Notes under the pieces: generated by a model
Told to the model about the DNA's origin: nothing
What the model saw: the letters and a program-made list of their open reading frames with translations, nothing else
Databases searched by the model: none
In this document: positions 8,690 to 64,000 of the stretch, piece by piece
How positions within the stretch are numbered: the stretch's first letter is position 1
Layout: the number at the start of each line of letters is the position of its first letter
Assembly: GCF_023343835.1 (NCBI RefSeq)
Contig: NC_064447.1
Span: forward strand, 9,816,501 to 9,880,500
Direction: 5' to 3'
DNA: 64,000 nt
DNA from: Lagopus muta
Taxonomy: Eukaryota; Chordata; Aves; Galliformes; Phasianidae
Position numbers and translations under genes: made by a program

Positions 8690-9140
8690 GATTCGGGAAG
8701 GTGGCTTCTTTATTCAGGCTTAATATTAACTAATTATTAAGGGTACAGTTGAGAGCAAACCTGGCAAAAATCAGCTGGCATTTCAGGATGTTGCAATAAC
8801 CACCACAGTTAATGGCAAATAGATACGTCCCCTTAGATTTAAAATGACAGCTCATTCCTCCGTGTTTAACACCAATTGAGATTATTAAAAACATCTATTG
8901 AGGCTCTGGCTTCTCTGCAGTAAAATATTCATCAGTCCCAGACTAGTTAGAGCTTGAAAGGATATATTTTTAATAATCAATTGCCATTTTAAATACTGTC
9001 ACACCCCAATTAGACTCGAATTAAACATCGCAGATAAATTAACTTTTCATTTAATATGTTAATTGAATGAACATGTTTATGGCTTTGAAACATTGTTCCT
9101 TCAATTCTTGTTTGAATAAAGGTGTGCCACACTACATGGA
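8690..9140. promoter_or_regulatory. Candidate conserved non-coding element
   Basis: An AT-rich block with many TAAT cores: TTAATATTAACTAATTATTAAG near 8720 (split here as TTAATATTAAC and TAATTATTAAG), AATAATCAATTG near 8973, and TTAATATGTTAATTG near 9051. No ORF of note and no repeat similarity was found. It resembles developmental enhancer DNA by composition, but this is inference only. Confidence 0.35.
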
Positions 9141-15400: not shown

Positions 15401-16950
15401 TAAAACACTGATAGGAGAGATGGTTTTGCAGCTGCTTTACATGACTTTACTACTGACACAAGGCACCTGGTGATGCTGAACTGCACTTTTGTATTCACTG
15501 CCTTGGCTGCTTGTAGGTTCTTGGATCCGAGCTGATACTAATGCAAGCATAGTATTCTGGCAGCCTGGAGAGAATGATGACCGTCCTGCTCACTGAGCCC
15601 CAGCCCAGTCCCTCTGCACTGCCCTTCTCTGCTGCCAAAAACCATTGCAGTCACACGGCTCCAAGCTGTCCGGGCTCCAGGTTCCCATCGCCCGCTCTGA
15701 CCTTGGGCACTTCCTCAGTTTCCCCACCAGTAAAACAGAAATAGTGCTTCCATGCTTCCTGGAGCCCTCCGAGACATGCAGCAGAAAAGTATGGCTTAAG
15801 TGCACTTACGACGACAATGGATTATTTATTACTCCCCCAGGAAATTGTTCCTCAGCCTGATACATCTCATTGTTAAAAAGCTATTCTTGATATTTGCTAT
15901 GATTTTGTCCCTTCCCCAGTCCCACTGCATTACTCATAGTAATATTCCTTCTCTTGTATCCCTACCCAAGGGGAAAGGAGAAGGATGCATTTTTACAGGT
16001 GACTTTTTATGCCTTGTTTTTGTACCCAATAAAACTTTCCCAAGCACAACTGCTGAGCACCTCCAGTGGCCTTGAAACTCATTTGGTGAAAGTACTCTGC
16101 ACCCCTGAAAGTAATTAACTGGAGTGATTAGAAAGGAATGCAATGCTCCATCATCTTCATTTGCTTCTTTCTTTGTTTTGTTTGAATAGAGAAGAAAAAG
16201 ACCTACCTCAAGGTCTTCCAGTGTGATTTCACATCCTCCTCCTGCTGCTGAAAAGAGGCAAGGGCTATGGGTGAATTCTACAGCTGATTTTTTAACAAAA
16301 ATATAATTTAGTGTACACATTGATGTATTAATTAAATAAACCCTCAATTGCTTCCCTTTCCGTTATCTTTTGTAACACATTTTGCATTCCCATCCCCAGC
16401 GGCTCAGTTTCAAATGCCCACCCTGTAAAACTCTATCAAGGAGATCAGCAAGATGAGCAGACATTCACTTCCTTCTGTGACATCTCAGTGAAAGAGGGAA
16501 CACACATTAACCTGGCCATGACAAGAGCAAAATTTGCCTTTCTGAGGTAGAGAATGATCCAGTAGGAAAGAAACTGTCAGAGTGGGTTGGAAGGACATTT
16601 CTCACGCCCTGACATGCGCATGACAAAGTTTCTTTTTCTAGCACCTTTCCCAAGACGATTGGCCCCTCAGAGACACGAGTCTGCAAGTTATGAGTCTAAT
16701 CCTGCCAGCAATGAGAATGTTCCCAAGGACAGGAAAATCTCCTGCTGGGGAAGCGCTCAGATCCTTCAACACAGCCCAAAGGAGATGCAAGAAGCTGCAG
16801 GTGTTTCTCCAGTGTGAGAAGCTCCATTGTGGAGGCAGCAGGAGATTTACTGGCCAGAAACCCACACATCAGTAAGATTCTAGTTGAGATCTGGTCCGTG
16901 TTTCAGCTCCCATATGCCATAAGCAAGATAGCAGAGACAGATGAAGTTTT
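12441..16950. other. Intergenic, no gene recognised
   Basis: Only short unrelated frames (152 residues at most, 13733-14191 minus, part of which merely reads through the 35-bp duplication at 13914). No element, RNA gene or exon could be supported. Confidence 0.45.
13914..13987 (+). repeat. 35-bp tandem duplication
   Basis: Two adjacent copies of a 35-bp unit (13914-13948 and 13949-13983) begin with GCAGCACAAC and end with GCAGGGAAACATCTT. A four-base start of a third copy follows. Copies differ at only a few positions just after the shared start. This is a recent short tandem duplication. Confidence 0.9.
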
Positions 16951-47711: not shown

Positions 47712-47819
47712 ATGGAGGGGGGGGTCGTCCGCCTTCCTTTGCCCCGATTGCAGCCTGGTCCCATGTGAACCGCACGGCACGGCTATGCTCCTGGGGACAC
47801 CGAGCTCCGCCGAACTAAG
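47712..47819 (+). other. CACNA1H: CACNA1H 5'-untranslated exon 1 (3' part)
   Basis: This is the non-coding first exon, inferred from its strong donor AAG|GTAGGA at 47819/47820 placed 263 bp before a good acceptor at 48082. Its 5' end is unknown; the part given here starts at the first visible upstream ATG near the donor. It contains three upstream ATGs: a frame at 47712-47768 (18 codons plus stop), a minimal ATG-TGA at 47763-47768, and one at 47785 that reads across the splice junction. The last has G at -3. Upstream ATGs this dense before a channel gene would be expected to lower translation. Exon identity is inferred from splice signals, not from a transcript. Confidence 0.6.
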
Positions 47820-48101
47820 GTAGGACCCCACCCCCTTCCCAGCAATATTCCATCCCTGAAAATCTAAAGGATGGGTGGGAGCACCCCAGAGGAGGGTGAT
47901 GGAGGGGTGGGGGCACGGACATCCAGCTTCCCTTCTCGAGGGTGGGAGCGGCCGCGCCCGGAGGCGGCTCCTCGCCCCACACCGCCCGGCTTTGTTGCGG
48001 CCGAAGCGGCGGGGCCAGGTGGGAGCCGCGCCCGGCGCTGCGAGGGAGCTGCAGCCCCTCACCCCTTGCCCTTGCCCCGCAGGTCCTGGCTGCTACCATG
48101 A
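47785..48101 (+). promoter_or_regulatory. Junction-spanning upstream ORF overlapping the main start
   Basis: ATG at 47785 begins a frame of 12 codons up to the donor. After splicing 47819 to 48083 it continues for five codons and stops at TGA 48099-48101. The stop overlaps the channel's ATG (48098) as ATGA. The spliced frame is 17 codons. If intron 1 is retained the frame stops at TAG 47821-47823 instead. The overlap is the geometry associated with termination-coupled reinitiation. It depends on exon 1 being as inferred. Confidence 0.5.
47820..48082 (+). other. CACNA1H: CACNA1H intron 1 (263 bp, U2-type)
   Basis: Donor GTAGGA at 47820 follows AAG. The acceptor at 48082 is preceded by a pyrimidine-rich stretch ending CCCTTGCCCCGCAG. 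The intron is short, GC-rich and lies wholly inside the CpG island. The open frame that runs through it from 47942 into the coding exon is explained by stop-poor GC-rich sequence, not by coding. Confidence 0.65.
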
Positions 48102-48363
48102 GTGATGGCGAGAGCCGAGAGCCGCGCCCGGCCGGCGGCGAGGTGCGGGTGCCCATCACCGTGCCGCCCCGCCGCCCCGCCGAGCAGCCCCTGGACGATG
48201 CCGGCTCCGTTCCCAGCGGTTCTCCCAGCCGCGACCCGCCGCCCGACCTGGCCTCCGAGGAGGAGGAGCAGGTGCCTTACCCGGCTCTGGCACCCACCGC
48301 TTTCTTCTGCCTCAAGCAAACCACCCGCCCGCGCAGCTGGTGCCTCAGGCTGGTCTGTAACCC
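48083..48363 (+). CDS. CACNA1H: First coding exon of Cav3.2 T-type calcium channel alpha-1H (partial)
   Basis: The product is the pore-forming subunit of a low-voltage-activated (T-type) calcium channel in the plasma membrane. It drives near-threshold calcium entry in neurons, heart and endocrine cells. The coding part starts at ATG 48098 (A at -3, good context) and gives 88 codons plus two bases of the next. Residues 1-58 are the variable cytoplasmic N-terminus, with EVRVP at 15-19, which matches the start of mammalian CACNA1H, and an acidic EEEE at 54-57. Residues 59-89 hold the conserved [14 protein letters not shown] and [16 protein letters not shown] that lead into S1 of domain [16 protein letters not shown] fits CACNA1H. 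CACNA1G reads [10 protein letters not shown] here and CACNA1I reads TSPRNWCIKM. Family proteins exceed 2000 residues, so this is only the first few percent. The exon ends after AACCC in phase 2, at an AT-AC donor. The longer frame starting at 47942 is rejected because it crosses the acceptor. Confidence 0.9.
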
Positions 48364-48374
48364 ATATCCTTTCC
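48364..48374 (+). other. CACNA1H: U12-type AT-AC splice donor
   Basis: The intron begins ATATCCTTTCC, a full match to the minor-spliceosome donor consensus (A/G)TATCCTTT. Cutting here leaves the conserved C-N-P intact, with the next exon supplying the last base of the proline codon before the expected W-F-E. The only nearby GT (48357, GTAACC) would remove seven bases and break the conserved frame. AT-AC minor introns are a known hallmark of voltage-gated sodium and calcium channel genes. The acceptor lies outside the window. Confidence 0.85.
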
Positions 48375-49179
48375 CCGAGGGACACCGCACCCCGCACCAT
48401 CCCCATCCCACTCCCGGAGCCCCTTCCCGTGCCCGGAGCACTTCACCAGGGTTCTGCATCCTAGTGCCCAGGGATGCTTGGAGCCCTGGGGTCCCTGCGG
48501 TTCCCTCTCTGCACTGCCCTGGTTCCCATTCCCAGGAGGAGGATATGGGTCTGCACCCCCTCACTGCAAGAGCGGGACATGTCGGTGTGCATCACCCCCT
48601 GTGTGTAACCCCCTGCCCTGGGGAGGAACACGGTGAGGTCTCAGCTGTGGTATGGGGCAGTGGGATGAGGTGCTCTGGTGTCACAGGGATGGGGACAGCA
48701 CCGAGTTGCCCCCTGCAGAACGAGGAGAAATCCTTCAACTTCGCTTCTCTCCCAGTCCGGGTGGGAGGGAGAGAAGTTTATAGGCGACCTCGTATTTATT
48801 TGAGACGCGGTGGGGAATTTCAGACAGGCGCTGACCCTTTTGCTGTTTATATAAGAGCTTGGAGTGCATGTGTGCTTTCTCGTGGCAGAAAAATGGAGCG
48901 GGTCGGAGTTTGGGGAGGGCACACACATTGCTCCTAAAAACTCCCCTTTGCTTTTGTTCTTTTGCAACTTGCAGGCAGGGAAGGAGGAGGGAATGCAAAG
49001 CTCTGCATCTTCCCCCGTCTCCTGTGTCCTTTATCCAGTTTATTAACGTTAAATAAGAAAGAGCAGTCTGTTCTTTTCAGTTGTGACATACGGGAAAATT
49101 GAATTTTACCCGAAATGCTTGTGTGAAAGCTGAGAGTTGTCAGTCTGTCTCAGTGATCTTCAGAAGTGAGCTTTTAGCT

Positions 49180-49440
49180 GTGCTCCGCACGTCAGCTCAG
49201 CAGCATTGACATTGTGCAGATAATTAATGCTTTTTACCTCTACCCTGGTACCTGCCTGCAGCTCGCTGCCTGCATCCTGCCGCCGCTATTAAAAGCATTA
49301 TTTATTAATACTGTTAGTATTGATCTCCTTTCAGTTAACCAGAGAAACCCGTGCGCATCTGAGATCACCGCTTTCCACCGCCCGGTGAGCGGTGTCATTA
49401 GGAGGAATTGCACAACCCTCCTCAGGACGTTGCCTTAATC
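49180..49440. promoter_or_regulatory. Candidate intronic enhancer
   Basis: Mixed AT-rich and CpG-retaining sequence about 0.8-1.1 kb into intron 2. It contains GATAATTAATGC, TTATTTATTAATACTG, CGCACGTCAG and GATCACCGC with several CpGs. CpG retention outside the island and motif density suggest regulatory DNA. Low-confidence compositional inference. Confidence 0.3.
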
Positions 49441-51691
49441 CGTAAGGAAGAGAAATCTTGGAGGGAAAAGCCCATGGGTTGTTTTTTTTTTTTATGGCCT
49501 TGAGCTTCCCCTTGTTTCAGCTGGGTTCACGTAAAGTTGCACAGAGAGATTTCTGCTTTATGGTTTTGCAAGAAGGGCCACGTGTGTATTGAAGGGAGAA
49601 GGAAACGAGCAGGAGCTGTGCACAGCAATGCTTCGGCCCTATAGCCATTAAACGTGGAGGATGGTTCTGTAAGTACAAAAAGTGAAGTATCCATTCCATA
49701 TCCTCATATCTGAGGCAGAGCTGTTCCCACAAAGTAGATTATCTCCTTTCAAAACTTTGGGGGCTAAAGGAGGGTGAGGCCTCTCCCCGGGCTCTGGCAG
49801 CAGCTTGCTCTGGAGCATTGCTCTGGGCTCAGCAGTCTTAATGCACAGGTGCTGCCAAATTAACCCACAGCTGATAGGAAGCAAAGTGGTGTCACCTCCC
49901 AGCCAACAGCATTCTAGGGAAATGGGTTCAGGTGCACTTGTGTGGGTGAGGTTGTGCTCTTATTGTTGGGCAGAACTTTGTGTCACAGCATCTTGCCAAA
50001 GAATTCACAGGAGAGCAAATTCCTTTGTAAAACTTAACTCGTGTGACATCATATTGGATGGAAATTGTGACGGTTGGTTCACAGTGAGGCAGAAATCTAA
50101 TAAAAGCTCATAAGCCCCTTCTTCAGCATTACTGCTGTCGGAACTGGCATTTTTTGGCTGGAACAGAACAACGCTCGTGACAGGGGTCAAGCTCCTGGCT
50201 GGGATTTTTCCCCACCTCTGTCTCCTCCTGCCCACCACTAGTCCCATGTGTTGCAGTGAGAAAGTGTCAGCCCTTACATTTCTTGGTGAGAGTGCTCGCA
50301 GTGCTGCTGGGTGTGCTTTTGGAAGCTGTGCGGAGGAGCACAGAGGTGTGCATCGCATTGGGAACTGGGGCTGAGTGCATGGTGGTGTTGGGCTTCTCAG
50401 GGATGGATGCCACTGCTGAGGGCTGGGAAACTTGGAGAGATTGGAGGAGGGCTGAGGTCCCCCCATAAGGACTGAGATCCCTGCCAGTGATGTCCCAGGG
50501 GAAGAAATAACTCGAAGCAGAGGTTGGAAGCACCAGCGGGTTTCTGGCCAGCCGTGCAGTTGTGGTGACTCTTCCTGCCTATGTAAAAGCACAGATCCAT
50601 AAAGCGTGATAATGATCTTTAGGTTTGCATTAAAATCTCCCTCTGTTGCAGACAGAAGGGTGTAAATGTGGGGTTCTTAGAATCTTGTGTCTGAGGTGCG
50701 TGCTTCTCTGGGAAGCACTGAACCTTTCTGTAATGCGGGTTTCCTCCTTCAGTGCTGGTTTTTGTTGTCCTTTGGTCTCTTTGTGATTGGGAATGCTGGG
50801 GAAGTTTTCCCTCTGAGCCTCTAATGCCCCTGTCCCCCCTCTCCCCGGCTCATGGGGTATTTCACAGTGTGGGGTTCATTGTTTCTATGATATTCTTGCT
50901 CCGAAACTTGCACGCCGCTATGCAGAAAGCCTTTATTTACCCCTGTGCTACTGAGTTGTCTGTCTGCCCAGCATGCCTCAAATCCTGTGGGTGCTCCATC
51001 CTGCACGATTGGGGTTCTGTTTCCATGTAGGCAGCTCTGTGGCATCTTCCTGGGGTTGACACCGCAGAGCTGGGTGCAGGAGCATCCTAAAAGGAGACGC
51101 CGTTGCAGCTCAAGAAGTGCTGCTGAGTGCATCTCCTGGCTTAGGGCAAGCCCCTGTCAATCCCACATCACTTGAACTGCAAAAGCAGCCCAGCCGCTCG
51201 GAATATTTGTTGTCAGCAGAGATAGCGCAGACCTGTGCCCCGGAGCAGGTGGAATCCCACACGGCTCAGCCAGAAGCATGGTTCCCTCTGCAGCTTAAGC
51301 AGGAGGGGGCTGCTGCCAGGCTTAGGAGCAGCTAAAAAAAGCCCCTGCCTGGTTCTTGGGGGGACAGGTGGGGCTGGGATCAGCTTACGGGACCGGGAGC
51401 GTGCTGGGCTGGAGGCATGCAGCCACCCCAGGGCTGTGCATCGGGTGCTGGAGCAGCAGGCAGGAGGTGTGTGGCTGTGGGGTTGGTGACGGTGCTTCAT
51501 TTGGAAGTGGAAAAATCTCCCCCCACAAAAAAAAAAAACAAAAACGCACATGTTTATGTATTAATAAAAACACCAAATTTTGCCAAGAAATGAAAGCGAA
51601 AGATGTGCGTGGAGCTGATTTTCACATACGGGAGCAATAAGCAGAGAGTTGTGACCATTAAAGTTTAATCACAGGAGCGGAACGCCGGGGC

Positions 51692-51704
51692 TCCGTGGTG
51701 CTGA
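51692..51704 (-). promoter_or_regulatory. RE1/NRSE left-half motif in intron 2
   Basis: The minus strand reads TCAGCACCACGGA, matching 13 consecutive positions of the RE1 element bound by REST. The right half is not matched beyond GGA. REST control of CACNA1H through an intronic RE1 has been described in mammals, so the position in the gene is notable. The match is only partial. Confidence 0.3.
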
Positions 51705-51840
51705 GCGGCTGATTGTTGTCAAACTGTGTTTGTGTGTTGTCTTGTGCAGGCAATGGGCTTTCATAAGCGATGACTGCAGCTCAGGAATCTCCTTCCTAGC
51801 TCAGGCTTATCTCCAAACCCTGCTCCAAGCAGGAATCCAT

Positions 51841-51862
51841 GTGTGTGTATATATATATATAT
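51841..51862 (+). repeat. (GT)4-(AT)n microsatellite
   Basis: Four GT units are followed by about seven AT units. A simple dinucleotide repeat in intron 2. Confidence 0.9.
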
Positions 51863-52194
51863 GTTGGGTTGGAGCAAATACACAGCTTGGGTGTAGCTCC
51901 TGTGACACAGGCAATGGTCAAAGCTGAGTTCTTTGCTGTCTGGTGTTGTATTGTGTTACCTTCTGTTATTACCGACATTATTTGCTCTTTTTTAAAAGAT
52001 ATATAATTGGAAGCAAACTTACTTATTTCTCCAGTCCTGGATCTCCTACGTGGGTTTATTTATGGAGGGCTGTGGGTGGGACGTTGTGTACTTTGTGTGC
52101 ACGTTGTGAGGCGCAGAGCAGGATTTGGGCGTTGAGACCCTGCGAGGTCCTTTCCTGGTTATTCCCAAGCTGTCAGCCCACAGCAGCCCCAAGT

Positions 52195-52242
52195 TATGTA
52201 TGTATGTATGCAGCTCATTTTCCCCCCCCCCCCCCCCCCCCC
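52195..52242 (+). repeat. (TATG)4 followed by C21 run
   Basis: Four TATG units (52195-52210), eleven bases, and then 21 uninterrupted cytosines (52222-52242). Long poly-C/poly-G runs are rare in vertebrate genomes compared with poly-A. In the transcript sense this is a poly-C tract able to bind poly-C-binding proteins. The complementary G21 can form G-quadruplexes. Exact length may be uncertain because such runs are hard to sequence. Confidence 0.9.
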
Positions 52243-54287
52243 GAACATAATGTTTTGCTGTTGCTTACATTTGGACCATGAAGTGCCGAGTCGCGCTGTG
52301 CCCATCACTGGGTGTCCCTGCTCCCCATGGGTGCTGGGTGCAGCAGCGCTGTGCTGGGAGGGCAGGGTGCAGCCAGCTCTGTGCATGCACTAGGGCCAGA
52401 GCAGCAGCAAGGAATGCTGCTTGGTGCCCCCTGGCACCTTCCTACGTGCGTGGCTGGGAAATAGGCTGCAATCCGTGCTGGGACCTGCTTTCCATCACAG
52501 CCCCAAGTGGCAGCACGGCTTCGATAAGGCTGGAGGAACTTTGCTGCTTTGTTCGTGATTCATAAAAACATTCCGTGATTCATAATAGGTTGAGTTCTGT
52601 GTGCCTTCGTTGGAATAAAACCTCCTGTGATTTATGGTCTCGAGTGGTTACAGAGCGTGGTGGTGCCAGCGGGGTTGCTGTGGGACTTGGCTCTGCTCTC
52701 CTATTTGGTAGAGCCTCTGCTTGCATCAAACCTGATTTTTTTCCTAGTTTTTATTATATTTTCTGAAGCGCAGCTCTTTGCAGTGCTTGCTGGTCGCCCT
52801 GACATCGCTTTGGGGCAAACCCAACATTCCCAACAACATCCTGTGTGTTATTCCAAACCAGCCCTCAGTGCAGGTGTCTATAAATACACTTGGATGCTGA
52901 AAAAAAATGTACTTTGTGCAAAATGATGTATGTGATCTGTGTCCAACGCTCCACGCTGCAGCTCCGTGCTATGGACAGGGCCGAGCTGTTTGTTGGGTGC
53001 TGCTATGGATCCAGCTCTGAGCTGGGGCTTGCAGTTGGTTCATTCCTTATTGCATGAGCAACATGTGCTGGCTCTGTTCTGCTGCAGTGTTGCAATTTGT
53101 GGCTCGGGGCTCTGTGCTGGAGCACACGGAGGTGTGGATGCAAGCGGCTCCCGTTGCTTTGGCAAACTTTATTTGCTTGCGTTCTGCTCCGTAACCAGCG
53201 TGTATCAGATGTGAGGAGCTTTATCAGAAAGCCTTTGCTGCTAATCTGGCTTTATTCAGACCATACCCTGACAAGTGCAGCGGGAGGCTTTGAACTAATC
53301 ATCGTTTGTCATCTCGGAGTATAAATATTGCTGTTAAAATATTGAAGCGTGCCGTGGAAAAACCTGTTCCCAAACAGCCATTCTTCTGGTATCATCCGGA
53401 GCTGCTGAGCACTCACAGAGTGCAGGGAGAGGTGCAGGTGCAGCACCCAGCAGCATCTCCTGCTGAATGGCAAGCAATTAGGCACGGCGAGGGAGAGAAC
53501 TTGTGCAAATTGTGACTTGTCTAAAAATATGCTGTACCTCCACATGTGTTTTTAGTTCCGCTTATTTTGGCTCTCTGTGTTGGCTCAATACAGCTAATCA
53601 AGAGTTTAATCCCGAGCTTCCTGTTTAATGTCAACAGAAACTGGCTCGGTTGGCACCCGAGGTCCGTGCTTCCCTCACCCTGCACTCCTCAGCTTTTGCT
53701 TTTCTCTGTGAAATGCCCTTTGTTCCCATCTCCCAGCCAAGCTCAGGTTCGTGGTTCAGCAGTGGGAGTTCCCATCCCTTGCAAAGTGACTGACAGCCAC
53801 AGAGCTTCTAGTGCTGGAGCACAACGTTGGGATGGCTGTGATTTCAGGCAGGCACGTGGGGATGCTTGGTTCCTGCTTTCAGGATGGCTTTTGTAACAAG
53901 GGAGGTTGGAAAGCTAATTACAGAAATGCTTGCAAAGCAGATGGGGGGTTTTCCTTGTTGTCTTGCAGTGAAGGTTGGCGTGTGGAACACCTGTGTGTGC
54001 TCGGGAGTGTGAAGAAGGGAAAGCAGATGGGGCTGGTGCTGGTGCCCAGGAATGGGAATGTGAAATTGTGGCTGGTGGAGTGAAGCTGAAGCAGAACCAG
54101 GAGAAAAGAAAAAAAAAACCAAAAAACGCATCTGGGCAAAGTAGATCAGGAATATAAATAATGGAAATAAAATCAGATTTTTGACTTTAAAAACGTAACG
54201 TTCTGTAAGCTGTGGTACAGCCATGCTGCTGCCATTCCTCACTCCTCACGCTAACATCAGCAGAGCCACATCCACCAGCCTTGAGTT

Positions 54288-54488
54288 GGACAGTGGGAGT
54301 AATTTCTTCTCCAAAAGGACAGTTGTGCACTGGCACTGCTGCCCAGGGGGTGGTGGGGTCACCATCCCTGGAGGTGTTAAGAACTATGAGATGTGGCACT
54401 GAGGAATGTGATCAGTGATCATGGTGGGGTGGGTTGGCGCTGGGCATCTCAAAGGGCTTTTCCAACTTCAGTGGTTCTATAATTCATC
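54288..54488 (+). mobile_element. CR1 LINE 3'-end fragment
   Basis: Contains TAATTTCTTCTCC, CACTGCTGCCCAGGGGGTGG, TCACCATCCCTGGAGGTGTT and a decayed tail ending TTCAGTGGTTCTATAATTC. The order is that of the avian CR1 3' end in the + orientation. About 200 bp, 5'-truncated, non-coding, inserted in intron 2 in the sense direction. Confidence 0.88.
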
Positions 54489-55189
54489 TCTGTCCCTATT
54501 CCATTTGTGCTTTAGTTACAGGCTACGCATGCAGTGACTCAGAGTAGAAATTTGTCCCAATATTGTCCCAAGCCAGGTGTGTCTGAGCAGGTTTGATTCC
54601 AGATGCACTTAGAAAACAACTGCTCACCCATTTCCTCCTCATTTCTTAACCTCCTTAGTGCTCCTACAAGAGCTGGGTGGTTCAGAAGTTAACTGTGCAT
54701 CTGCACACAGCTTACTATACCCACCATTCACTGCAGGCAATCATTACAATTCTTTCAGTGTGTTTGTGTGTGCTTTCCCTTTGCTATTAATTTTTTAAAA
54801 TTTATTCCATGTTGGATATTTCCTACTGAGAGAGATGCTGACTTGTTGCAGTAGATATTAATAAACATTTCTTGTGAACTGTAGCTGTTTCGCAGGGACT
54901 ACTTTTTATTTTCAGGCTGTAATTTATAATGCTTCAGAGAAATTCATTTGCTGCTTTTTGAGGCACTTAGAAGCTGCATCCCAGACTGCGCTTTGTGAGG
55001 TTCTTTGGTTGCCTTCAGAGTTCTCACTTCTCAGATTTGGTGGGAACCAATGAATGCAATTTCAGTTTGCAGTTTCTTTACAAGTTGGCCTGATGCATTG
55101 AGAACACATGTCTTTTTCCCAGCATGTTTCCACGCCAGATCCACCATTCACTGAAACAGGAGGCGCTGCGTTTGCCCTATCTCTGGTGA

Positions 55190-55308
55190 CATGCAAGGCC
55201 ATGGATGGGCCCTGGGCAGCCTGGTCTGTTGGGAGGCAGCCAACCTATGGCAGAGGGGTTGAAACTGGGTGATCTTTGAGGTCCACTCCGTCATAAACCA
55301 TGCTATCC
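55190..55308 (+). mobile_element. Degenerate CR1 3'-end fragment
   Basis: The series GGGCCCTGGGCAGCCTGGTC, GCAGAGGGGTTGAAACTGGG and TGATCTTTGAGGTCCACTCC follows the CR1 3' end of a different subfamily from the copy at 54288. The octamer tail is decayed. Divergence suggests an old insertion. Confidence 0.75.
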
Positions 55309-57939
55309 AGTTGAACTCTGCTGATTAATGGCAGCAGAAGTCCAGAGCTCAGAGTCAGTGCTATTTCCTCATGTTGAGGAAGAGTTTTAGGCAGTTTGGG
55401 GCTTCTCTGCCTCTAGATCTTTTCCAAATTACCATCTAGCTGTCTCTGAGATGTTCTACTGTATTTTGTGTGTTTTCTTAAATAGAAAAGTAGGTTTAAG
55501 TTTATAATTCAGTTACGCTCTGAGCAGCACCTTCCTAGAGCCACTCAGGTTGCAGCTAGCTCCTGTTTACCTTTTCCTTGGCTTCTGTCACCTACATTTT
55601 TAGTTTGGGGCCAGCAGCGTCCACCCACCTTACTGGGAAAGAAAAGATGAGATTTATCCGATGGGCTGTGCCTAAATGACATCTTTGGAGTAATTCCATT
55701 AGAGCAACCAGGATCGCATTAGTTTACAGTGAATGAACTCTGAATCATGTTTCTGTGTTGGTTGGTTGTTTTAAATTGCTTTTACAGACAGGGAGCACTG
55801 TGAGTGCCCACGGACAGAGCTGCGATTAGTTTTCCCTGGATTATGCACAGAGCTGATGATCTTGTGCCCATGTAAATGAGGAAGAGACGCAATACAGCCC
55901 CAGCCCCACGTCTGCATGCCACAAACACTTGGTGGGCTGCATTCTTACCCCATGTTCCTCCCTGAATTCGACCCTCCTGGGCCCCCAAATCATACCGCAG
56001 CAACCTCTGCCGTTAGCGTTAAAGCTCATGCAAGAAATATGTTACCTCTATTTGCACAGATGTTTTAAGAGAACTTGAGCTCAGATTTTGCCCTTAATTC
56101 TTAAGGTAGCATCTGGCGTTCATGTCCAATCCGTTAATCCTACTGGTGAAGCAGCGCTGTGATTTTAAATGAGATATACCTTTAAGTGAATGTTTAGCTT
56201 TTGGGATGGTGGGAAAGTTATGATGCGATCTCCTGTGATAGTTAATCCTAAGATTTCAGAAAGCCTAAAATCACTGGGATGTGAGCTGGATTTTTGAACC
56301 AGCGGTCGGGAGCCACTGGGCTGCATAGAGGGGGAACTGGGAGAGAACTGGGGCTGCGGTCCACTCAGAGCTGGGTGGGAGTCACAGCTCTGATGGTATG
56401 CAGCTGTAAGAGACCTTTTCCTCTTTATTCCCCGTAATAAAAATCTGTACTGAGCCCTGTACCAGGCGGGCTAGTTTTGGCAATGGATTAAATGCATGGA
56501 TTTGGGATCTAATGATGCCGGTTTCAATTGACAGATGGAAATGGTGCACTTTCACAATGCTACCAGTATTTTGCTGTTACTGCTCAGCAGCCGGGCCTCT
56601 GGAAGCCATCCGGAGAAATAAGAGAACTCTGTGTGCCCATCTCTGTGTCACGGTTCCTTCAGGCAGTGAGTTCAGGGTGGGCACTGCTCTGCGCCTGCTG
56701 CTCCCATCCTTGTCCTGCAATGCAGGAGAAGGACTTGCCAGATTTTCTAAGATTCCACAAACCTTGTTGCAGAAAGTCATCCAGAAAGGATGGGACATCT
56801 GTTGTGTTCCAGAAGGCTGGAGAGTGCCACGAGCTGTGGGTGTTACGAGCAGGGATGCCTTGGGACTGGTTGTCCCCTGGGGCCATTGGCATACCCAACT
56901 CTTCAGTTCCCCCCCATTGCCCATGTTTCTTGTGATTTGCTGTTGTTCTGATGCAAGGGCTTAAGCCCTCTGAGATTTGTGTTGGAAAAGCAGCAATTTG
57001 CACAGAGCTGCTGTCTCAGAGGAGCTGCAGCCCAGGTTTCTTCTTGACGTGGCTTAGGAGAGGAAGCAGCAGCAAGTTGCTGCTGTCCCTTGTTGGCGAT
57101 GGCAGATGTGGGGAAGGATGAAGAGCTCACCAGGAGACAAAGCAAACTGCAGCATTTGGTACTGCGCATGGGAATTCTTTGGGCTTAGTTTTCAGGCACA
57201 GGTGATGGAAAAGCAGAGGGACAGACAAAAGCAATGTGTGTGTGCATGTGTGATACATATCTGTATGATACATACAGAATACTTATCTGTGTGTACCTGT
57301 GCTTTTGTTCCTAGTGGAGTAGACCTTGCGTTATTTATTTATTTGTTGCAAAGGAATGGAAGCCTTTCTTGTGCAGCTTGATAGCAATCAAGCTTATTCC
57401 TTGGTTTCTCCATGAGGGTGTATTCAGGTGGATTTGGAGGTGTTAACAGAAATCTGAACTGAACTGACTGAAATAATGAATCTGCGAGAGCTTTGTCATT
57501 GACTTTGGTTCCCTACCATAGAAGAAGCTCAGAGAAGGTTCAGCAGGAGACAATGGGTTGGCTTTGGAAAAGAAAACAAGACTTGATTCTTTTTCTTTGG
57601 CCCCATGTTCTGGATAGGTAATTCCAATGCCAGCAAGGCGGATGGATCCAGGAGCAGGATTTAGCCCTAAACACACTGTGTATCCCCAGCCTCTTATTAC
57701 CAAGCCCTTTTGTAAGTGTGTTTGTGCGTAGCCTGTAATGGTATAATGTACACTGTAATTTTGTTGTTAAATCTGAGCCACTTTGGCATGGTGGGGACTA
57801 GACAGCTTATAGCGATCGGAACATTAGGGCTTATTGAATTTCATAGCCTGGGGGACTGAACCGCACAGAGCAGCTCTTGTAGGGGGAAAAAAAAAAATAA
57901 TACCCCATCTATTTCTCCTGAATTTCTTTTCTGGATTGA

Positions 57940-57965
57940 TTTTTTTTTTTTGGTTTTTTTTTTTT
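57940..57965 (+). repeat. Poly-T tracts, T12-GG-T12
   Basis: Two runs of twelve thymines separated by GG, followed by CCTCATTTTACAG. In sense orientation this resembles a strong polypyrimidine tract plus AG. I see no downstream exon with coding similarity or a suitable donor, so it is listed as a simple repeat. Confidence 0.85.
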
Positions 57966-60900
57966 CCTCATTTTACAGACTCGGACTTCTGGGCACAGAG
58001 GGTTGGGAGAGATGCCAGTGGTGGGAAACAAACCCTGGGATGGTGGTGTCCTATGAAGTAGCCTCTCAGGGAAGGAGGTTTGGATCCATTCCCAAAGGCG
58101 CTGGGAAACGCCGCGTCTGCTGGGATTTCCTTCACCTCCCTTCCCAGTAGAGGCTTTGGTTTCATCTCTCTCAATACTGGAAATGAAAAAGAAGCCAGAA
58201 GGGCTTTCTGGTTCTGATGTGGTTGCAGCATTTTCCTTTTATCATTGATCTCAAATGTTGTTTCTGCAATTCCAGGCCTACACCTGTGCTGTAACCACTT
58301 CTGCCATGCTCTCACAGTCTGCTTAGACTGGGAGAAACTTGGTCATTGAGGGCTACGGTTACAGAAAAGGACAGGTTTTCATTACTGGGAACTTAGCTAG
58401 ATGCTTGTCTTGCATACTATGGATTAGCTCCATTTTTCTGATCCTGTCTGAGTGTTTCTCGCATGTATGAGATGGCTCCATCCCCAACCCACAGCTCCAC
58501 ACACCCATTAAGATGAGCTGAAATCTTACTGTATTGCTGGAGCAGGGCTTGCCTGGAAAAAATCAATGCTCGGCCATAGCCAAGGGAGGGTCGTCTTAAG
58601 GCTGTATTTAGTCTGTTTTTACATTAAAAAAAAAATTAAACACATCTCTTATTGAAATTTCCCAGGCCCTGCTGAGTCATGGCTGTTTTCTTGGTGCTCT
58701 GTTGAGTTTTTGACAGGCACCTACCAGGCTCTCCTGTATATGTTTGTCAGGGGGTGGAGCTCACCAAGCTGCTTCTCATGTGCACAGGCAATCAATTATG
58801 GAGCCCATTTGCTGCTCTGTTATTAATATTTACAGAGCAGCACTTGCATTATAAGAGCAGATCATGTGCTTGGAAAGCTTCAGGGAAGAAAGGTCATCAT
58901 TTTGTAGAAAGGAAGAAAGGAACCAAAGCCAAGAAGCAAGAAGGTGACATGTAAGGGGCCAGCAGCTGAGGTGTGAGACACAGGTTGATAGTCAAGGTTG
59001 AGGCTGGGGCTGTAATTCCTCCTGTGAAGCATCACCAAAATAGTTTATATCCCTGTGAGCAGAACAGAACTTCTAAGAGATGGGTTCTAGAGGTGAGTAC
59101 CAATTTATGAAGCTGTGCACTGCATATGGTCAGCGTTCTCCAAATGCTCCAGGACTTCTGATTACCCCAGTGTTGGCTTGAGGAGGACGGGCAGAGCTTG
59201 GGAATGATGGAAAGGGAATAACTTAAGCTAAATCGCAGAAACCTTTGGGTGTTACGTGGTCATTGGGAATCTTGTCTTGCTGTGAGCTTTTCTGATATCT
59301 TCCTGTTGCTGCTTATCTGAGACCAGTGGGTTCCATGTGCAGGGAGCTTCCACCACACAGTCCTCTATTGCACTGGTGCATTCCCACAGTCCCATTGTGA
59401 CCTAGCAGAGCTGCTCATTTTGGTAAGGGCTGTAGAATTTGCCCTTAAGCAAGACAAGAGGCATCAGTTAGGCAAAATCAATCCCCTGCCTGCTTCATAT
59501 CACTTTGTCCTGATAAGCTGTCACTTTGGCTCTTAACACTGCATTTGAAAGCACATCCCTGCTCTCCAGGATGGGTCAATGTCAGCAGCAGTATCAGCTG
59601 AAGGATGGATTTAAGCCTCCAGCTCGTCGCAAGAAAAGGGAACGACGTCTGAGGCATCACTTCTTGGCAGCCTTTGGTCTTTCACAGGTTGGAGAGAAAT
59701 TTGGTAGGCTGAAATATCCCTGAGCCATCCCTTTTGGTTTAATGGCGCTAATAGGAATTGTGACGATGAGGAGCTGGAAGTGTATGAAGGAGACTCTGTG
59801 TCACCTCATGGCTGTACTTGGGGGATGCACCAAAGCAAACAGGTCCTTGGATGTCATGTCAGGGGGTCACGTAAGGACCGAGTTCAGCTGACCTTAACCC
59901 TGCGTTTCCTGGCTCTGCCTGATGTAAGCCAGACCTATTGCCTTGTTTGCACACTGGCTTTGCAGCGGGGGTGATGGATTGCAGTGTGAGCTTTACCACC
60001 CTTCATCGCTGCTTCCTGTGCTCTTTTGGCCTGTTATGTTCAGTTCAGTCAGAGTTTATTATAAATAACTTCAGATAGCTGAAATATCCCGGGCTCGCTT
60101 CTTTTTTTTTCTTGGCAGTTGCAGAGCATGAATCGGCTTTGAGGTTATTGAGGTATTTTAACGTAACATTTACAGCCCCTATCTATACAAAATGTGACTT
60201 GTGTTTATAGAAGTGTGCCTTTAACAGTCTCTTATCAAAACATATGGGACTCTACAGTTGGATGCTGGGGTTCCTCTAAAGCATTCCCCAGACAACACAG
60301 TTCCACGTTACGTTGTCTTATGATGTCTGGAGACTTAACCGAGTCTGTTGTTCTGCAAATACAGTTGTGTGTCTTTCTGTCTGGCCCATGATGCTCGCCT
60401 CTCCTCCTCTGAGCTCCCTTATCGCCGAGTCCCCCTTCGCCCCTCTGTGTCCTTGGCAGGCAAGGCAATGTCACAACACAGAAAAGCACGTCGTGCTAAA
60501 TAGGATAAGATATCAGCAAAATGGAGCGACAGGCTGACATCACGATATGTCTGGGAGCAGGAGGTTGTGAATAAGCCCCAAGAAGTGACGTTTGCATTTT
60601 TCCCTGCTGCAGATCTCACAGATGTTTTGTTCTTATTTACGGCTCCTTATTTACATGGCCAGAGGCTGGGGTCAGACTGGGCTGTGGGTCACCAGAGTGT
60701 AAAACAGGGAGAGCTATCCTCCCTCAAAGACATCAAAAGGAATGTGTTTGGCCCTATGAGTGTGTCCTCATCCAGTCCCACGTTGGACACTGTCCAGGTT
60801 TTATGCAGCATCAGAGGGCTCTTGGTGCAGTCTGTTACCGCCTGTTGTTTCACAGCAGGAGGACGGGGTGTCCACTAGATGCCCTCTGCATTGTAACGCC

Positions 60901-62989
60901 CAGACCAGCATCCTTAAAGAGTTGCATTGTTGTGTTGCATTTAATAGGGCTGCCAAGAAGAACAAGATCTATTGGGCTCTCGTCCTGCAGTGTTGTTTTC
61001 TTTGGTACATTGTGACACGTTGCCCTTGCTGGAGAGCTGGAGAGCCTTCCAAAAGCTTCACTTTCTCATTCAGAGCCTGTCCAAGCTTCTATCCTGAGCT
61101 GCTGTAGTCTGTAAATTGGAAAGAAAGTTTGAGCAAAAATTGGCCTTCCTGTGGAAGCTCTTGTCCTCTCCAGCCCATAAATTTTAATGGGAATTGGGCA
61201 TGCTGAATCCCTAGGTGGCTATGCAAATCTCAGCCTTTTCTGAACCGAATCACAAGTACTCAAGCCTAAAGTTCTTTCTTATCCTGGTGTCAGGTTTGAA
61301 CTTGGGTACTTAAGTTTGTATCTTATGGCAATTTGTGAGAATTGATCAATTTATCTCGAGACATTGTTTGCAGAGGCTCTGGTGAGTTGAGGAGGATAAT
61401 GCTTTATGTCTGAGCAGCATTATCTAAATTAAGTAATGAAGTTGTCTGTCTATGGGCAGTCTGGTTTGCCTTTCTGATGGAGGTAGATGCTTTGATTTAT
61501 GCAAGTTCACAGACTGGTAGCCCAGGCCTTGCTGCAGCTGTCAGGGGGAAGGGAGCCTTTAGAAGGGCTGAGAGTGGGTGACCCTATTGAGCCACCCCTT
61601 GTGAACCCACACTGCAACAGCTGGCAGCCTGTGGGGCTGATGACTCCGTGCAGCCCTGTTGGGTTTTGGTAACCCTATAGCAGTGAAGTAGGGAGGCACT
61701 GGCTTGTTTTTGGCATTTCAAAAATAGAGTACCACATGTGCTTGCTCGATGTCCCAGCATCTCCTGGAGCCTGCCTTGCTCTTGGATCTCCTGCCAGCAC
61801 TGGGCCTGGGTAACCTCTCCCTGATCTTGATGCTGCCTGGTGTCTTTTGGTTGCAGTAACACCCCAGCTGTCGTGTGGTTGTCTGTGGGGGCCGATGAGC
61901 CCCTGCTCTTTGAGTCTCATCCAGCAGGGAGGTGACTTTGCGCTCATGTCCCCTGCCTGCACGGTGACAGCTTCTTGGGAGCCGTCTGTCCACTAGATGT
62001 CAAACCTCTGCTGCAGAAGGGGTGCTCCAGCATGCGGGGAGGTTTCAAACACCGATGGCGTGTAGGGAGCAAAAATGGGATTTAAAGTCTGACATGGGCG
62101 GACGTCCACCGATGACCTCACTGCCCATCTGGGGAGCATGCAGGGTTTCATCTGGCTTTCTCTGCTGACATATTTCAGGTTAAAGCAGGGTGGGACAGGA
62201 CTGCTTTTTTTTTTTTCTTTTTCTTTCTGGAAGCATATGAATTAGTTCAAGTGAAGTATTTCAAGGGTTCAGTTCTCCTGCAGATGCAGTCCTTCGGACT
62301 GAAGGGGCTTCCAGATTCAGAAGTAAACCTACAGGGACCCACTTCTGATCTTATCTTTCTTTTATACCCTCGTTTGTTTGTTGTTTTTTAAATGGGAAGC
62401 ACCTGCTTTAACACAAATAGCTGTTGATCATCATGAGCATAACTCCCTTGAGCTGTTGCTGGACATGGATGAGGCTGGAGCACAGTCAGAACCTCTGCTC
62501 TCATGCAGACTGGATGTCTCCAGTGCTGTTGCTTGCTCCAATTTTACTTATTATCAACTTACAGCAGGAATTTGGTGTTTCTTTTGTCTTGGATCTTACT
62601 GTTTCACTTTCATTTGGTTTTCATATTCTTTTTTCTCTGCTTCTTTGCTCCTGCCTGCTACCAAAGACAGGACATAGACAGATTTCTGGTGGTGCCAGGT
62701 ATGCAGGCATGGATGGAGGTTGGCGCATTGTGTATGTTCCCCAGTGTGTGCCTGTCCCTTAAGGGCTTGGCTGGGCCCCATGTTTGGGTGCCCCAAAGGA
62801 AGGGAGAGTGCTTCTGCAAAACAGCAGACAGTCCCAACTCTGCCATGACCCCATTGTGCCAAAAGCCAAACGCATCTAGTCCTTGGCAAGTGCTGCTCAA
62901 CTTGTCTCACAATTCGCATCAATCATGGTCTCCTTTTGTCTTAATTAAGCAAAACATTGTGCTTGTGTGTTCCTCAGTGAAAAGCGCAC

Positions 62990-63350
62990 GCAAGATTCCT
63001 GTTTGGGATTGTTTTTAGTCTCTGAAATTATTCATGAGGCTGCTTTTCCTGATTTATGACAGCACCCAGCACATCGTCATGTAAATGACTTTTAAATGGA
63101 ATGTTTCAGCAGTTTTATAAGAATTCCTCATGTGAGGGGAAAATAAACAGTTTGTCATTTACCAGACTGTATTTGATTATTAGATTTGTTACTATAAACA
63201 GCAGGCTATGCTTCCTTAAGCTGAAGCTGCCGGAGATGTATGACTTCTGAGAGACATACTGTTAAATAAAAGCAAACCTGATGTGAGAAATCAGCACGGG
63301 ACTGATCAGCCCCATTCCTCACTGGCCAGATACACAAATCTTGGCCAGAA
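62990..63350. promoter_or_regulatory. Candidate conserved intronic element
   Basis: AT-rich, ORF-free and repeat-free stretch with AATTATTCATGAGG, CATCGTCATGTAAATGAC, GATTATTAGATTTG and AAATAAAAGCAAACC. Composition resembles enhancer DNA. No conservation evidence is available. Confidence 0.27.
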
Positions 63351-64000
63351 ATGAATATCTGACGCTGGGATTAATGAGACTTTAGATTTTTATGTCTCAT
63401 TTGAAGAGCTGTGAAAGGTGGTAGACATGGGTTGGGTGTCCTGAGTACATGGTGGAGCTCCAGGCTGTGCTTTAAGGTCAGAATACTTGTGTGATGTTTG
63501 AAGAAGTTAATGCAAAGGGGTGAGCATGGCAAGACAAGTGCAGTACAGTAAAACTTCAGCATCCTGTGAGGGGATGGGATGGGCAGAGCATTTTATATGC
63601 AGGCAGTGGCATGGAGGGACCTTCTTGTTGAGTGGAAATGCAACCATGCAAATTCATCAATGTGTTGCTAAAGGGATGTAGAATGTCTCTCAGGCCCATG
63701 GGGATTGGGTTAGAGAGGAGAACCTTAAACCAATAACTGCATGGCAGGTTAGGAGCTTCATGCAGAACTCATCTTCTTCCCTCAGGCTAAAATGCACCCT
63801 GCATGGAAAGGAGTTTTGTGTAAAACTGTGATTTGGAGGAACGTGGGGGCTTTAAGGTCTGCAAAGAGCATTTGGGAAGTGACAGGATCAAGCTGTGGGG
63901 CTGGTTGTGTTGTAGGTGACTGTGTGCACAGGGGTGCTTTGGGCCCTCTGCCTGCAATCGATGACTTTGTGCTTTGCCACAGCACTGAGTCTGCATCCCC

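Follow-up and report, generated by a model that had tools for sequence, protein, structure and literature searches.

The first coding exon and its leader

The window (the whole stretch of 64,000 nucleotides that was analysed) holds on its forward strand, at 48098..48363, what is most likely a portion of the first coding exon of the CACNA1H ortholog, encoding the N-terminus of the T-type calcium channel Cav3.2. This assignment was made from the translation together with phmmer and tblastn searches. The reading frame opens with the ATG at 48098, and its 266 coding bases consist of 88 codons followed by CC, an end in phase 2. Immediately downstream are a U12-type AT-AC 5' splice site (48364..48372, forward strand) and the 5' part of the corresponding minor intron, which occupies 48364..64000 of the same strand and presumably runs past the window.

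The identity of the gene was judged from 88 residues. When the exon protein was compared by phmmer with the sequences of solved structures, human Cav3.2 came first (9ayg_A, residues 78-142, E 4e-15), followed by two Cav3.1 sequences (E 9e-12 and 1e-11) and by Cav3.3 (E 3e-9); these four distinct sequences were all the matches up to an E of 1. In bits, the 88-residue query scored 59.4 with Cav3.2 against 48.6 and 48.4 with Cav3.1 and 40.5 with Cav3.3. Among the Cav3 paralogs Cav3.2 is thus the closest, from these 88 residues alone, and because human Cav3.2 is placed ahead of Cav3.1 and Cav3.3, the gene is most likely CACNA1H. In the reverse direction, segment 78-142 of human Cav3.2 found the first coding exon by tblastn with an E of 4e-21 and 60% identity, which served as a positive control. 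A Pfam scan with E up to 0.1 assigned no family to the exon protein; in the same scan, 5 of the 29 listed open reading frames of the window each had one match below the family cut-off. There were no Rfam matches at gathering scores, and the motif of a CR1-like 3' repeat, sought as a mark of bird DNA, had no match.

Upstream of the exon, consensus sequences suggest a putative leader intron of the ordinary U2 type with GT-AG ends (47820..48082, forward strand; AAG/GTAGGA ... CCGCAG/GTCC). If it is spliced in this way, with 47785-47819 joined to 48083-48101, a frame of 17 codons, MLLGTPSSAELRSWLLP, would begin with the ATG at 47785, and its TGA would share bases with the start codon of the channel at 48098 (ATGA); it is possible that such an upstream frame controls the translation of the channel. 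The likely leader also carries a minimal start-stop element, ATGTGA, at 47763-47768, and a second short upstream frame, from the ATG at 47712, ends on the TGA of this element.

The exon boundary and its donor

The junction reads ...CTGGTCTGTAACCC/ATATCCTTTCC, with 48363 as the last base of the exon and 48364 as the first base of the intron; the letters just 3' of the exon end are ATATCCTTTCCCC. On the basis of the phmmer match and the sequence of the structure chain, the boundary was placed in the codon between residues 142 and 144 of 9ayg_A: the match stops at N142, and WFEHVSML, the S1 stretch of domain I, starts at Trp144. The exon end accordingly lies one codon ahead of the Trp that opens this stretch in Cav3.2. 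Exactly one residue, number 143, which we take to be Pro, stands between the two, and this fits a codon split at the end of the exon. Past 48363 the window continues in frame with YPFPEGH where Cav3.2 has WFEHVSM, and hence the homology ends at the donor. The position, where S1 of domain I begins, is that of the D1S1 intron conserved in Cav and Nav genes; the place of that intron in these relatives is taken from published text.

The donor itself, ATATCCTTT, agrees at nine of nine positions with the AT-AC minor-intron consensus as quoted in PMC6259924, and positions +5 and +6 of the intron are CC. The mere presence of this 9-mer says little: it occurs once per strand in the 64 kb (at 48364 on the forward strand and at 8965 on the reverse strand) against 0.13-0.25 expected per strand, so that its significance resides in its place. 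The 8-mer ATATCCTT reached two copies in 46 of 100 shuffles. The chance that the exact 9-mer would fall within 15 nt on either side of the homologous boundary is 6e-5 to 1.2e-4. The proposal of an earlier note on this DNA, that an AT-AC donor of the U12 type directly follows the first coding exon of CACNA1H, was borne out in its gene, boundary, phase and donor.

The consensus of the major-class (U2) donor is MAG/GTRAGT. Were ATATCCTTT a coincidence, the exon would have to end at an ordinary GT nearby, for example at 48353 or 48357, or else read on downstream. GT dinucleotides are indeed present at 48340, 48353 and 48357, and the frame is open as far as 48937; but these three GTs match the U2 consensus at only 6, 6 and 4 of nine positions, and among the 15 GT, GC and AT sites scored in 48330-48419 the top U2 score was 6 of 9 (48340, 48349 and 48353). 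With any of the three GTs as donor, the Cys-Asn that the exon has in common with human Cav3.2 would be lost, if not more, whereas reading through would yield the YPFPEGH given above in place of the S1 stretch. A U12-type site at D1S1 is, moreover, already in print (PMC6259924). We regard such a coincidence as very unlikely.

These comparisons also refine two points of the earlier note. It had held that a Cys-Asn-Pro reading and phase 2 are kept only if the AT-AC donor is used: at least Cys-Asn would indeed be lost at the GTs of 48340, 48353 and 48357, but the Pro does not speak for the donor, since CC followed by any base encodes Pro, the CCA of the read-through included. What argues for the donor, besides that loss, is that the Trp-starting S1 of human Cav3.2 is not what comes next in the frame of the window. 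The GT at 48357, named as the site to which a gene finder would turn if it did not read on into the intron, exists; it is nonetheless a poorer U2 donor than its neighbors at 48340 and 48353.

An intron could also have AT-AC ends and yet be removed by the major spliceosome, as occurs with some AT-AC introns of sodium channel genes (PMC2831892). However, those U2-type introns carry a G at +5 according to the same text, and the base at +5 here is C; the CC at +5 and +6 belongs to a full minor-class ATATCCTTT. This alternative has as slender a chance as a coincidental 9-mer. We conclude, with a probability of about 96%, that 48364..48372 represents the 5' splice site of the U12-type AT-AC intron that T-type channel genes have conserved where domain I S1 begins; no finding speaks directly against this.

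The extent of the intron

From the donor to position 64000 there are 15,637 bases, and because no domain I exon was detected in 48364-64000, though tblastn readily finds the first exon, the intron is probably longer than 15.6 kb. The length suggested by the earlier note thus holds insofar as no domain I exon was found downstream up to 64000. With domain I of human Cav3.2 and Cav3.1 (163 and 162 residues) as tblastn queries, no downstream match better than E 2.9 was present among the matches listed, and the 42-residue S1 pieces of the same two proteins likewise gave no downstream match better than E 2.9. The best matches overall, at 16786-16842 (E 0.29 with domain I and 0.029 with the S1 pieces), are upstream of the exon and look like chance. 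The pattern TGGTTYGA is absent from 48364-64000. The sole match to a looser pattern for an exon start, CAGT-TGG-TTC at 53033, reads WFIPYCMS by hand translation, unlike WFEHVSML, and was rejected.

Further marks of U12-type AT-AC introns are a branch site, TTCCTTRACYCY, not far from the 3' end, an AC acceptor, and splicing by U11, U12, U4atac and U6atac. In 48364-64000 the tight forms TTCCTTRAC and TCCTTRAC have no match, and the 3' end of the intron apparently lies beyond the window. Looser patterns occur three times (CCTTRAY) and four times (TTYTTRAY) in the same interval, none of them tied to a domain I exon. The length of the intron is not anomalous in itself: for either class of intron, mean length is correlated with the size of the genome (PMC7367187).

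An ancestral minor intron

According to Fux et al. (2018), nearly every Cav and Nav channel has a U12-type (AT-AC) splice site at D1S1, and Cav1, Cav2, Cav3, Nav1 and Nav2 are named (PMC6259924). The intron described here has the same donor consensus and the same place in domain I S1, in a family, Cav3, that their list includes; no difference was seen in a comparison made from their text rather than residue by residue. Lin et al. (2010) list intron 1 of 23 of the fly T-type gene as AT-AC, and as U12 in both fly and human (PMC2831892, Table 2), with the human U12 orthologs sharing the subtype of the fly introns; the human T-type paralog is not named in that table. Drosophila Ca-alphaT intron 1 thus likewise belongs to a T-type gene and to the AT-AC subtype. 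It is the first intron in the fly, whereas here it would be the second, since a non-coding exon seems to precede it. In the same paper, 156 of 180 clusters have U12 introns conserved across the full set of eight vertebrate lineages, with chicken as one of the species, the passage giving no indication whether CACNA1H is among the 180. MIDB is quoted as giving a minor intron for the alpha genes of all human Nav and Cav channels, or 100% (PMC6865273). The calcium channel genes that carry minor introns and are affected in SMA include Cacna1h, the same gene as here, in a passage that has neither intron number nor sequence (PMC6558932). In the available parts of two further papers, CACNA1H occurred in the reference list only (PMC9652823) and no channel gene was found (PMC10639083). 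A search limited to the text of papers found no report of this particular intron in a bird.

Since a U12-type AT-AC site has been published for D1S1 of Cav and Nav channels and an AT-AC U12 intron for fly and human T-type genes, and since Cacna1h is named as a minor-intron gene, the earlier note gave a correct reading of a known and ancient feature. Introns of this kind are uncommon, but in calcium and sodium channel genes they have been on record for a long time and are ordinary. The surprise that the earlier note implied is unsupported, since this minor intron is documented as ancestral.

The 5' splice sites of minor introns are recognised by the U11 snRNP and then by U6atac. On this scheme ATATCCTTT would be recognised first by U11 snRNP and then by U6atac, and splicing would connect 48363 with an exon beyond the window that starts with one base and then the Trp codon; removal by the minor spliceosome, an AC acceptor and the dependence of the full-length message on this donor are what the donor sequence predicts. 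Were the intron retained, the frame would stay open for 190 sense codons, up to a stop ending at 48937. The product of 279 residues, of which the exon encodes 88, the split codon one Pro and the intron 190, would be without a channel segment, and no channel would result.

It seems to us improbable, if slightly less so than the alternatives weighed above, that in this lineage a long intron which the minor spliceosome removes slowly serves as a regulated on/off switch for Cav3.2, with a channel output that tracks the activity of the minor spliceosome. If it were true, the retained message ending at 48937 would make no channel. Minor splicing as a possible control of excitability is an idea already printed (PMC6865273). 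The intron is one further instance of that reported from fly and human T-type genes (PMC2831892, as above) and opens no new question. For this genome, its practical consequence is that annotation of the first coding junction of CACNA1H needs a non-GT donor.
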